In this document: positions 19,988-23,485 of the stretch, piece after piece
Layout of the letters: each line of letters starts with the position of its first letter
Position numbering within the stretch: the stretch's first letter is position 1
Origin: Haloglomus litoreum
Lineage (GTDB): Archaea > Halobacteriota > Halobacteria > Halobacteriales > Haloarculaceae
Reading direction: 5' to 3'
Length of the DNA stretch: 64,000 nt
NCBI RefSeq assembly: GCF_029338515.1
Contig: NZ_CP119988.1
Location: 1,426,001-1,490,000, forward strand
The notes under the pieces: model-generated
What the model saw: the letters and a program-made list of their open reading frames with translations, nothing else
Databases searched by the model: none
What the model was told of the DNA's origin: nothing
Translations under genes and position numbers: made by a program

Positions 19988-20416
19988 TCAGCGCCGGAGG
20001 GCCCCGGTGACGAACGCGACGATGGGGACGGCCACGACCGCGTGGAACGCCACGAGGACGGCCTGGCCGACGGCGGTCACGCCCAGCGTCGGGGCGAACG
20101 CCACGACCGGAACCAGCATGAGCGTGAAGACGGCCGCCGCGAGCGCGGTGAAGTTCCGCGCCGGGCGGGCGGTGAACCGGTCGAGTACCGCATACGCGAC
20201 GGCTGCGCCCACGCCCGCGACGACGGTGGTCGCCAGCAGGGGGAGGACCGCGAACGGGTCGTTCGTGCCGCCGGCGCCGACCGCGAGCCCGGCGAGGTCG
20301 ACGGCAGCACGCAGCACCAGGACGGAGACGACGGCCGTCAGGATGCCGAGTGTCGTCCGGCGGGTCAGGTCGCTCGCGTCCACCGGGCGTGTGAATCGGG
20401 TTGTTGTCGTTGCCAT
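19988..20416 (-). CDS. Four-segment membrane protein, DUF6069-like
   Basis: A 142-residue membrane protein with four hydrophobic segments, at about 24-45, 55-80, 88-108 and 114-138, and an arginine-rich cytoplasmic start. Its pattern (TTVVAGVGAAVAYAVLDRF, then ARNFTALAAAVF) resembles small DUF6069-type proteins; this assignment comes from memory of the family pattern. The start MATTTTRF at 20414-20416 lies 8 nt from an operator-like CTAC-N7-GTAG and is divergent from the HxlR gene, so it is the likely target of that regulator. Confidence 0.7.
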   Translation of the reverse strand: MATTTTRFTRPVDASDLTRRTTLGILTAVVSVLVLRAAVDLAGLAVGAGGTNDPFAVLPLLATTVVAGVGAAVAYAVLDRFTARPARNFTALAAAVFTLMLVPVVAFAPTLGVTAVGQAVLVAFHAVVAVPIVAFVTGALRR

Positions 20417-20424
20417 GGCTATCC

Positions 20425-20439
20425 CTACGCTTTCCGTAG
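20425..20439. promoter_or_regulatory. CTAC-N7-GTAG operator before the membrane protein gene
   Basis: CTACGCTTTCCGTAG is an inverted repeat (CTACG...CGTAG) ending 8 nt before the start of the leftward gene. The same CTAC-N7-GTAG frame occurs 7 nt before the HxlR start at 20504-20518. Confidence 0.65.
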
Positions 20440-20465
20440 CGATAAGCAGGGAACTCCCCGGATGC

Positions 20466-20476
20466 GTAGTCACTAC
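20466..20476. promoter_or_regulatory. GTAG-TCA-CTAC inverted repeat in the divergent promoter
   Basis: Between the two CTAC-N7-GTAG sites the half-sites recur in the opposite arrangement, GTAG then CTAC with a 3-nt spacer (extended CGTAG-TCA-CTACG). This may be an extra half-site pair for cooperative binding. Confidence 0.45.
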
Positions 20477-20525: not shown

Positions 20526-20906
20526 ATGGAACCGACATCGCGTGACGGTGGTACTCGCCCGCCTGCCGAGTGCCCGCCCATCGGCCGGGACGGTGCGGAC
20601 AGTGCGGTCGCGGCGCTGCTGGCGCTGCTGGGCAAGCGCCACACGCTGGCGATCCTCTACCGGTTCGCCAGCGACCCGACCCCGTGGCGGTTCGGCGAGC
20701 TGGAGGCGGAGCTGGGCATCTCGCCGACGACGCTCTCCGAACGCCTGGCCGAACTCACCGCCGCGGGTTTCCTCGACCGCCACTCGTACGACGAGCGACC
20801 GCCCCGCGTCGAGTACATCGCGACGCCACGGCTGGAGGGGCTGAAGCCAGCGTTCACGGAGCTCTACCGCTGGTCCAGCGAGTACGGTCCTGTGACGGTG
20901 GACTGA
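20526..20906 (+). CDS. HxlR-family transcriptional regulator
   Basis: A 126-residue winged-helix protein. Family blocks: LLALLGKRHTLAILYRF (about 31-47, resembling the LxGKW-type block), RFGELEAELGISPTTLSERLAEL (HTH, about 55-77), and the wing DRHSYDERPPRVEYIATPRL. A cysteine near residue 16 (AECPPIG) is at a place where redox-sensing HxlR/YodB proteins often carry one; sensing here is inferred only. The gene is divergent from the membrane protein at 19988, and both promoters carry the same inverted repeat. Confidence 0.9.
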   Translation: MEPTSRDGGTRPPAECPPIGRDGADSAVAALLALLGKRHTLAILYRFASDPTPWRFGELEAELGISPTTLSERLAELTAAGFLDRHSYDERPPRVEYIATPRLEGLKPAFTELYRWSSEYGPVTVD

Positions 20907-21401
20907 CCGGCGGGATACTCGCCGCTCCTGGCTCGTGGTGGTGTGTCGCCCGGAACACTAACGTCCGGTCTCATCCCGTGGCGGCGTGCCGCGTCGACCG
21001 GGAAACCCTCGTGCCGGGCGGTGGGCGCGGAGCGCCCACGGATGGCGAGACGGCGTAAGCCGTCGAGCCGGAGCGCGCGACGCGCGCTCGAGTGCCGAGG
21101 CGGTGTGAACCGCCGAGGCGGAAGGCGCTCGGCGCCTTCGACTGCCGTGACCCGAGTTGGTGGGTCACGGCGACCGCGTGCCGCCCCTTCGTGGCGGACG
21201 GCGGTTCCTGTCGCGTGCCCGGGTTCTCCGCGCGTCATCGCGCCCTGCTGGGGTCTCGGGCGGGGACTGAAGGCACGCGTCGGGGCTAGTCCGCGCCACG
21301 GTATCCGTGTTTCGGGGCGCGCGCAGTCTCGGCTCTCGCACCGACCTTCGCGGGCCCTCCGCGCCGGAAGCGTCAGGAGGTGCGAACGCCTAGCCGTGGA
21401 T
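20907..21401. repeat. Gene-free stretch with an array of short-loop hairpins
   Basis: No convincing gene is present; the frame open through it is Arg/Ser/Pro-rich, unlike the acidic proteins around it. Six strong inverted repeats follow one another. They are 21021-21039 (8-bp stem, GGA loop), 21049-21064 (6 bp, GTAA), 21071-21089 (8 bp, GAC), 21099-21114 (6 bp, GTGA), 21121-21139 (8 bp, TCG) and 21144-21171 (10 bp, 8-nt loop). A weaker 5-bp one lies at 21181-21197. CGAG occurs at 21046, 21064, 21089, 21096 and 21114, flanking the stems. Further on, GGGCGGGGACTGAAGG resembles a module of the dispersed repeats at 26, 38 and 49 kb. Confidence 0.8.
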
Positions 21402-21899
21402 ATGAGCGAGTCCACGCCCTCGGTCGACGTGATGGAGACGCCGGTGGTGCTGTTCGACGGCGTCTGCAACTTCTGCTCCTCGTCGGTCCGGTTCATCCAC
21501 CGGCACGACGACGGGCGGCTCCGGTTCGCGCCGCTCCAGTCCGAGGTGGCGACCGAACTGCTCGCCGAGCGCGGGATGGACCCGGACTACTTCGACTCGC
21601 TGGTCTACATCGGGCCGGAGGGCGTCCATACGAAGTCCGACGGCGCCGTCCACATCGCCCGGTACATGGACGTTCCCTACCGGCTGGGGTGGCACCTCCG
21701 ATTCGTGCCCCGGCTGCTGCGGGACGCTGGATACGATCTCATCGCGCGCATCCGCTACCGGGTCTGGGGGAAGAAGGAGGAGTGCATGGTCCCCGATGCC
21801 GAACTGCGCGACCGGTTCCTCGCGACGAGCGATGGCGACGAGGCCGTCATGGGTGCGGCCGGGGGGGAGGCGGGCGGGGAGGCCGCGGCGGACGACTGA
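21402..21899 (+). CDS. DCC-family thiol-disulfide oxidoreductase-like protein
   Basis: A 165-residue protein of the DCC family (DUF393), defined by the N-terminal DGVCNFC motif (D-x2-C-x2-C) at about residues 19-25. It is followed by a thioredoxin-like alpha/beta pattern (RFAPLQSEVATELL; YIGPEGVHTKSDGAVHIARY). An aromatic-basic helix (GYDLIARIRYRVWGKKEEC) ends the conserved part, and the last 20 residues are low-complexity Gly/Ala/Asp. A redox role is inferred from the CxxC. The start at 21402 (MSESTP) is where acidic halophilic composition begins. Confidence 0.88.
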   Translation: MSESTPSVDVMETPVVLFDGVCNFCSSSVRFIHRHDDGRLRFAPLQSEVATELLAERGMDPDYFDSLVYIGPEGVHTKSDGAVHIARYMDVPYRLGWHLRFVPRLLRDAGYDLIARIRYRVWGKKEECMVPDAELRDRFLATSDGDEAVMGAAGGEAGGEAAADD

Positions 21900-21902
21900 G
21901 CC

Positions 21903-23261
21903 TCAGACGGAGTAGTCGTCCTCGCGGATCTGGCAGTAGCCGCCGTCGCGGTTCTGGAACTTGCCGTACTGGTACTGCGCGAACAGTTTGAGCGCACCCG
22001 GCCCGGCGCGGATGGCGTCGAGCCAGTCCGTCCGCCCGCCCTCGTCGGGTTGCATCGCGCTCGCGAGGCCGAAGACGCGGTCCCAGTCCGACGGGCCGTA
22101 GTCCCGGACCATGTCCGCGAGGACGACGTTGCGCCGGACCTCCTCGCCGATGGCGCGCTTCCACTCGTAGTTGTACGCCCGGAGCGCCCCCAGGCCGGCG
22201 AGGCGCCCGGCCTCCTTCCCCGAGCGGATGGCGACGTGGTCGCCGCCCTCGTGGAACGCCGACGTGGCGCCCATCGCGCCCCCGACGACCGCCACGTTCG
22301 CCTTCGTCGGTGACTCGATGGGCCGCGTCGAGGAGATGGGGTACGTCTCGGTCCCCTTCGCCTTGCCGCGGTCCTCGAGCAGCGGGAAATCCTCGGCGTC
22401 GTACTCGGGGTAGGCGTACTCCAGCAGGCGGCTGATGTACTCCTTGCCGGCGGGGACGCGCTCGTCCTCGGGCCGGAGGAGGGCGTAGTCCTCGCGGTTC
22501 TCGACGGTGTCGAGGTCGAGGCCGATGGGCATCGTCAGGCCGACGCGCGCGACCTGGCCGTCGTTGGGGAACACCCACGGGTACGCGGTGTGGCCTGGCA
22601 TGTGGCCCCACCAGAACTTCAGGCGGTCCGTCTCCAGCAGTTCCTCGGGGATTTCGCGGTACTCCTGGTAGGCGATGTGGTTGGCCGTCGTCGAGGCGAG
22701 GCCGTCGAACTGGCCGTCCGGGAGGAGCGGTTCGAGCACCTGCCCGGTGACGGTGCGCTGGGGGCCGTCCGCGAGCACGAGGTAGTCGGCCTCGATCTCG
22801 GTGCCGTCCTTCAGCGTCAGCTGGTGGGTTGGTGCGCCCGTGAGGTCGCTCTCGACCTCGCGGACGCCGGTCCCGACGCGGTACTCGGCGCCGGCGTCCT
22901 CGGCGCGCTCGCGGAGCCAGTCGTCCATCCGGGCGCGCTGGAAGGTGAACCCGAAGTTGGGGTAGGAGGCGTCGATGCCGGTCTCGTCCAGCTCGACGGA
23001 GGCGTTCGGCCCGATGAAGTCGGCGCCGGTCAGCTCGCGGAGCTTGACGTGCTCCGGGATGGGCACGTCGAGGTCCATGATGTCGACCCAGTAGTCGAGG
23101 ATGCCCGCGGCGTCCGTCGAGTCCGGGCCCAGCCCCTCGCGGTCGGCGCGCGGGACGCCCTTCTCGATGACGAGGGCGTCGGCCCCCTCGGCGGCCGCGG
23201 CGCGTCCGGCGGAACTGCCGGCCGGCCCGCCGCCGACGACGGCCACGTCGACTCGTTGCAT
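21903..23261 (-). CDS. Geranylgeranyl reductase family flavoprotein
   Basis: A 452-residue FAD-dependent enzyme of the geranylgeranyl reductase family. The N terminus has VVGGGPAGSSAGRAAAAEG (dinucleotide fold). FQRARMDDWLRERAEDAG (about 110-127) and the second FAD block GGAMGATSAFHEGGDHVAIRSG (about 318-339) follow. In archaea such enzymes saturate the isoprenoid chains of membrane lipids or quinone tails, and menaquinone genes lie elsewhere in the window. Which prenyl substrate it uses is not shown. The start MQRVDVAVVGGG is typical; the open upstream extension is not. Confidence 0.88.
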   Translation of the reverse strand: MQRVDVAVVGGGPAGSSAGRAAAAEGADALVIEKGVPRADREGLGPDSTDAAGILDYWVDIMDLDVPIPEHVKLRELTGADFIGPNASVELDETGIDASYPNFGFTFQRARMDDWLRERAEDAGAEYRVGTGVREVESDLTGAPTHQLTLKDGTEIEADYLVLADGPQRTVTGQVLEPLLPDGQFDGLASTTANHIAYQEYREIPEELLETDRLKFWWGHMPGHTAYPWVFPNDGQVARVGLTMPIGLDLDTVENREDYALLRPEDERVPAGKEYISRLLEYAYPEYDAEDFPLLEDRGKAKGTETYPISSTRPIESPTKANVAVVGGAMGATSAFHEGGDHVAIRSGKEAGRLAGLGALRAYNYEWKRAIGEEVRRNVVLADMVRDYGPSDWDRVFGLASAMQPDEGGRTDWLDAIRAGPGALKLFAQYQYGKFQNRDGGYCQIREDDYSV

Positions 23262-23485
23262 GGTATCGCTCCCGGCTCCGGTCGGTATAAATGGCGTGAC
23301 ACGGGCGCGACGGGAGCGGCATGGGGGGCCAGATATCCGTACGTGCCGCTGCTGGAATCTCCTCCGGCTGACAGTACTGGGATGCGAGATACAGCGGGGA
23401 GGTTCAGCAAATCGGCCTCGACGGTATGGTCGATCTCGAGGGGGCGGAGGAATTATCACTGAACGATGCCAAAACAATCGTCACC

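Follow-up and report, generated by a model that had tools for sequence, protein, structure and literature searches.

A hairpin array of variable copy number as the likely spacer of a double H/ACA guide RNA in haloarchaea

Locus and features

The DNA analyzed here is a window of 64,000 nucleotides from the genome of Haloglomus litoreum (contig NZ_CP119988.1); by the window we mean this whole stretch, and its positions are used throughout. The intergenic block under study lies between a gene of the HxlR family, which ends at 20906, and a DCC1-like gene, which starts at 21402. The initial annotation had placed six strong short-loop hairpins at 21021-21197, and all of them were found by a span-limited fold along with a less regular seventh; the true unit, 21021-21208, is somewhat longer than that interval. 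The loops on the plus strand read GGA, GTAA, GAC, GTGA and TCG (3-4 nt), with one more of 8 nt, and CGAG stands at 21046, 21064, 21089, 21096 and 21114, all as had been described; a further CGAG is present at 21153. This unit almost certainly separates the two halves of a double H/ACA pseudouridine-guide RNA as its spacer. The RNA is of the minus strand, on which the predicted order is promoter, first guide hairpin (HP1), hairpin array and second guide hairpin (HP2) (Table 1).

Table 1. Predicted parts of the guide RNA in the window (target positions U2621, U1956 and U1958 follow the 23S numbering of Haloarcula marismortui)
Feature	Position	Strand	Remark
H/ACA RNA promoter	21287..21314	-	Column statistics over 156 distinct loci
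Promoter elements: A-rich BRE-like (CGAAA), AT-rich TATA-like box, TA promoter-proximal element	21287..21314	-	
HP1, first H/ACA guide hairpin	21209..21278	-	23S target U2621 = E. coli 2586
HP1 5' guide GUC	21265-21267	-	
HP1 3' guide AACCC	21221-21225	-	
HP1 ACA box	21209-21211	-	
Structured spacer, seven-hairpin array separating HP1 from HP2	21021..21208	-	
Array hairpin 7, irregular, HP1-proximal	21173..21205	-	Span-limited fold
Array hairpin 6, 10 bp, 8-nt loop	21144..21171	-	Span-limited fold
Array hairpin 5, plain type (B)	21121..21139	-	Span-limited fold
Array hairpin 4, 26-nt type (A), UC/UC internal loop, loop UCAC	21094..21119	-	
Array hairpin 3, plain type (B)	21071..21089	-	Span-limited fold
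Array hairpin 2, 26-nt type (A), UC/UC internal loop, loop UUAC	21044..21069	-	
Array hairpin 1, plain type (B), adjoins HP2	21021..21039	-	Span-limited fold
HP2, second H/ACA guide hairpin	20942..21020	-	23S targets U1956, U1958 = E. coli 1915/1917
HP2 5' guide GAGGGU	21005-21010	-	
HP2 3' guide GUUAGU	20957-20962	-	
HP2 ACA box	20944-20946	-	

A gene for an FAD-dependent oxidoreductase lies near the RNA locus (21903-23477, minus strand), and in several relatives what appears by eye to be the 3' end of a similar gene adjoins the promoter side of the RNA. On the other side a small DUF6069 (PF19545) gene of unassigned function (19988-20473, minus strand) is divergent from the HxlR regulator (20526-20906) and is perhaps its target.

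Identification of the double guide RNA

When 20985-21260 was used as the query, a match was obtained in 138 of 146 genomes of the same family, in most cases to its two ends rather than to the hairpins, and in the relatives two near-invariant blocks flank a variable row of hairpins. The comparison of this gap across related species, which the initial annotation had proposed, found the structure to be kept but not the same stems. A total of 190 loci were collected, of which 180 were parsed (10 were unparsed) and 156 are distinct.

AACCC is kept in HP1 of 154 of the 156 distinct loci, and the ANA box stands exactly 14 nt past it, likewise in 154 of 156 (ACA in 140, AUA in 13 and AGA in 1). In HP2 nearly all of the 156 loci have the box 14 or 15 nt away: ACA or AUA is at 14 nt in 81, and elsewhere mostly UAC (56) or CAC (16) is at 14, which places an ANA at 15. 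The invariance of HP2 is partly by construction since HP2 anchors were used for finding the loci, and it is so by construction in the 80 loci from named genomes, which were fetched with a pattern containing the HP2 guides. The stems around the guide pocket carry double-sided changes in both hairpins (156 rows each), with most pairs of the two sets of helices standard in 144-156 of the 156. Both hairpins also have a conserved GAUGA opposite CGAG or UGA, a sequence which would suit a putative K-turn for L7Ae.

The guides fit sites which each occur once in the rRNA locus of the genome. HP2 pairs with 6+4 nt at U1958 (ACUA-UG-ACCCUC) and its second site, at U1956 (UAAC-UA-U-GACCCUC), overlaps the first in helix 69, while HP1 pairs with 5+3 nt at U2621 (GGGUU-UA-GAC) in the peptidyl-transferase loop; the pairing of the HP1 5' guide, at 3 nt only, counts against the identification. 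Genes for Cbf5 (270.6 bits over cut-off) and Nop10 (66.9 bits over cut-off) are present in the genome. Together with Cbf5, Nop10, Gar1 and L7Ae, HP1 and HP2 would turn three uridines of the 23S rRNA, located in the peptidyl-transferase loop and in helix 69, into pseudouridines.

A two-hairpin H/ACA RNA was predicted in Haloferax volcanii by Grosjean 2008 (PMC2584109), with HP1 for Psi2621, HP2 for Psi1956/1958 and a "long spacer" between the hairpins, and PMC4652768 names H. volcanii as one of the archaea in which a guide has been fully validated by experiment. The RNA of H. volcanii resembles the one described here in having two H/ACA hairpins at one locus with the same three 23S targets, and also in the long spacer and its conservation in haloarchaea (PMC2584109). 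From the targets, the order and layout, the spacer and the distribution, we infer that HP1 and HP2 of the window are those of Grosjean. The sequences themselves show the strand of the RNA, its two guide hairpins with their ANA boxes, how the guides fit the rRNA sites and that the array maintains its pairing; the RNA of the window would be expressed and modify its 23S sites, as predicted for its relative H. volcanii. The best explanation of the whole, and one we hold to be quite likely, is a double H/ACA guide RNA with a haloarchaeal modular linker array.

No Rfam family reached its gathering score in the window, and the scan of 20900-21400 gave no match to RNase P at E-values up to 10 and none to HgcG. 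The archaeal RNase P RNA, which had been suggested as a candidate, was therefore dismissed, and weak Rfam matches (miRNA, ilvB-OMG, BTH_s19) were dismissed as lying far below their cut-offs. The RNAs Pf7/Pab40 of Thermococcales (HgcG, RF00064) are similar in their adjacent hairpins with ANA boxes, and their stems II and III are homologous according to Grosjean 2008 (PMC2584109); they differ in having no spacer and a third guide hairpin, besides the lack of an HgcG match in the region. The part of PMC2584109 which deals with this RNA gives "long spacer" only, and the alternating array, the quantum of about 50 nt and the variation from 0 to 10 hairpins come from the present analysis; no description of the structure of this spacer was found in the literature searched. 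The "long spacer" of 2008 is given its content, and the family, being without an Rfam match, could be added to Rfam at once.

In Haloquadratum walsbyi, contig KE356560.1 carries two near-identical copies of HP1-spacer-HP2 (L164, 960-1018; L166, 1458-1516) and is the sole named contig which is listed twice.

Strand and promoter

In the core helices of the 156 sequences, read in the sense of the minus strand, G-U and A-C stand at 345:29, and at 101:23 once an invariant G-U pair and a doubtful one are left out, which places the RNA on the minus strand. The array shows an asymmetry of the same direction and smaller size (52 distinct hairpins with G-U and 29 with A-C, p 0.014); nine arrays of the Haloarcula group, with 3 of each, are too small a set to speak on the strand. 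Upstream of HP1, and numbered from it, the 156 loci have three elements in common: an A-rich one (-35 to -32), an AT-rich box (-28 to -25) and, at -10/-9, an AT dinucleotide, with A/T at 81% at -33, 58-95% from -28 to -25 and 81/72% at -10/-9. We take this layout to be a haloarchaeal promoter, and its parts are named accordingly as BRE-like, TATA-like and promoter-proximal elements.

The proposal of a stable non-coding RNA was right in kind, but the RNA almost certainly belongs to the opposite strand and the hairpins form the linker of an H/ACA guide RNA. The GNRA loops (GTAA, GTGA) reported before are real on the plus strand, whereas the RNA itself has UUAC and UCAC at these places; likewise the CGAG letters at the stem borders are there, but most of them are UC/UC internal loops of the RNA read on the complementary strand. 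Taken as RNA, the tetraloops are most often UGAC or UCAC; of 251 in all, 89 are UNAC and 149 are UNNC. UNAC loops are mimics of GNRA loops. That a functional RNA is also made from the plus strand, with GNRA loops and tandem G-A pairs, is very improbable: GA/GA would there give sheared pairs and 53 of the 251 tetraloops are GNRA on that strand, fewer than the UNAC consensus of the minus strand, and both the excess of G-U over A-C in core and array and the promoter signature belong to the minus strand. This reading was dismissed on these three grounds.

Distribution and origin

A covariance model of HP2 found a match in 102 of 294 genomes of the phylum, with 9 of 9 in the family, 43 at the level of the order (one order-level miss is listed) and 50 beyond the order, the last being weak (E-values 1.4e-6 to 0.01). 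Among 18 loci examined beyond the order, HP1 lies directly upstream of HP2 in 17 and was not seen in 1; as judged by eye, the 17 adjacent HP1 have AACCC in 14 cases and AACCUC in 3. This adjacency is probably ancestral, and the array is thus probably a haloarchaeal insertion between hairpins which adjoin elsewhere in the phylum. Two loci at the level of the order differ, the hairpins being adjacent in L277 and separated by an array in L278. In the family of the window itself, one genus has a spacer of 0-2 nt in all 7 of its genomes, and spacer length varies within most genera which were sampled more than once.

Structure of the array

The region 21010-21215 has a fold energy of -139.4 kcal/mol; 200 dinucleotide shuffles lie at -111.8 +/- 4.45 and none of them is as good (z -6.2). 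The exact spacer in RNA sense gives z -8.0. Over the 121 spacers of at least 38 nt the median fold z is -4.63, with 108 below -2 and four above -1. The spacer of the window consists of seven hairpins, of which the five nearest to HP2 alternate between the plain 19-nt and the 26-nt type, so that the stems start at an exact period of 50 nt (21021, 21071, 21121; 21044, 21094). The same pattern is found across the loci, where plain hairpins of about 19 nt alternate with hairpins of 26 nt, which often have the UC/UC internal loop, at a median centre-to-centre pitch of 26 nt (269 gaps). The spacer ranges from 0 to 261 nt in the 156 distinct loci and the hairpins from 0 to 10 per genome.

The positions of the UC/UC loop were counted in slots from HP2 in the family loci, with hairpins defined by the span-limited fold; the locus group called "other" in the slot and hairpin counts includes some loci titled Haloarcula or Natronomonas. 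The loop is absent at the odd slots 1, 3 and 5 (0/87, 0/66 and 0/43; 0/196 in total) and present at the even slots 2 and 4 in 32/86 and 18/59 (50/145 in total). UC/UC accounts for 55 of the 73 symmetric 2x2 internal loops, in many different surrounding stems.

In nine distinct arrays of the Haloarcula group, all of one length class, standard pairs fill 429 of the 432 pair cells; both sides of the pair have changed in 9 cases and one side in 3, and there are 3 breaks. The variable columns are 18 of 50 unpaired against 13 of 96 paired ones. The pairing is maintained by compensatory changes and is under selection at the level of RNA.

Change in copy number

Loci with guide cores at least 96% identical were compared in 147 pairs, which, like the loci, share ancestry and are not independent: the spacers differ by 0-9 nt in 69, by 46-53 in 33 and by 97-108 in 18, and the remaining 27 show other differences, including about half units of 22-28 and 78-84 nt. 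As an instance, L086 and L069 have identical guide cores and spacers 50 nt apart in length, and the alignment of the Haloarcula group holds arrays of 41, 91 and 140 nt which differ by whole modules. Internal direct repeats are found in 13 of the 76 spacers of at least 60 nt, at shifts of 51-53, 100-106 and 151-152 and none near 26. Taken over all 121 spacers, length shows a modest periodicity near 49-50 nt (resultant 0.33), and the clear evidence for the step of 50 nt comes from the close pairs. Since half-unit changes occur, the step of about 50 nt, one plain 19-nt plus one 26-nt hairpin, is a tendency and not a law.

The array mostly gains or loses one hairpin pair of about 50 nt, the probable source being slippage or recombination of units that resemble each other, and selection maintains the self-folding of every unit. 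The idea that neighbouring units are kept different against mispairing was not supported, as identity between hairpins of the same type is 0.585 for adjacent ones and 0.607 at a distance of two units (42 arrays, paired test p 0.79). The guide ends stay near constant and the insert jumps by hairpin-pair modules between sister species with pairing strictly kept, so that nature itself provides the experiment of lengthening a structured RNA without harm to its function. The rule of the modules (add about 50 nt, keep the alternation) can be tested in genetically tractable haloarchaea.

The serial insertion of palindromic units, which the initial annotation had offered as the other explanation, holds in so far as units of hairpin pairs are gained and lost, but these are not dispersed palindromes. 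A mobile element of the MITE or REP type inserted several times is hardly credible here. The spacer of one Haloferax locus (L135) does carry an extra inverted repeat of about 80 nt in comparison with another (L127), yet the 26-nt hairpin has two matches in the genome of the window with 3 mismatches allowed, both within the array, where a dispersed palindrome would have many copies, and this candidate was dismissed. With one mismatch allowed, 15 of 142 genomes of the family matched, once each, and 13 of these places are known loci; of the other 2, one is the same locus and one is not.

The extra repeat of L135 (Haloferax profundi, around 2151-2444), set against L127 of Haloferax marinum, is near-perfect and is perhaps a small palindromic insertion. 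Arrays of a second module type, GUGGA..GACAC in RNA sense, were seen in another genus (L115, where the modules carry GUCA loops in RNA sense) and in another family (L278), which suggests independent growth of arrays.

Possible role of the array

The role which we favour, as rather more probable than the others together, is that of a linker or insulator. The array would act as a modular, self-contained linker which holds the two guide RNPs apart, and it would prevent the guide pockets from being caught up in misfolds of the GC-rich transcript. The length of the array is nearly free. The UC/UC motif survives the turnover of both flanking stems, which counts against neutral filler, and this persistence together with the strict alternation weighs against mere filler and favours a specific function; the absence or reduction of the array in whole lineages weighs against a vital device.

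A dedicated module for protein binding or scaffolding, in which the 26-nt hairpins with UC/UC loops would be the binding sites of a protein or would stack as a regular rod, is a tentative possibility to which we give limited weight. The number of hairpins would then set dosage, as in sponge RNAs of the CsrB type or scaffolds of tandem hairpins. The way in which the two hairpin types strictly alternate from HP2 onward, the regular pitch and the share of UC/UC among the 2x2 loops despite change in both stems speak for it. On the other side, the array is missing in every genome of the genus with the 0-2 nt spacer (g4), one or zero hairpins are found in 21 of the 54 distinct loci known only from the scan of named genomes, the even slots too are mostly without UC/UC (95/145), and common descent through duplication also explains its preservation. 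It is doubtful, though conceivable, that the copy-variable array of double-hairpin modules of about 50 nt, often with a conserved tandem U-C/C-U mismatch, sets the geometry or dosage of the two pseudouridylation RNPs through the binding of a haloarchaeal protein or the packing of a regular rod. If this were true, the number of modules would be an evolvable parameter. Sponge RNAs of the CsrB/RsmY type carry a variable number of short tandem hairpins in one RNA; the array differs from them in having no conserved GGA-like loop motif and in sitting within a modification guide RNA.

That the array hairpins are extra H/ACA guides for further sites is the least probable of the readings. Three guide hairpins do occur in another archaeal H/ACA RNA (Pf7; PMC2584109), but internal loops are lacking in most of the plain hairpins (at slot 1, in 81 of 87), those of the 26-nt hairpins, with 2 nt per side, would by the rules for H/ACA RNAs be too small for a guide pocket, and the loops and stems of the array turn over fast.
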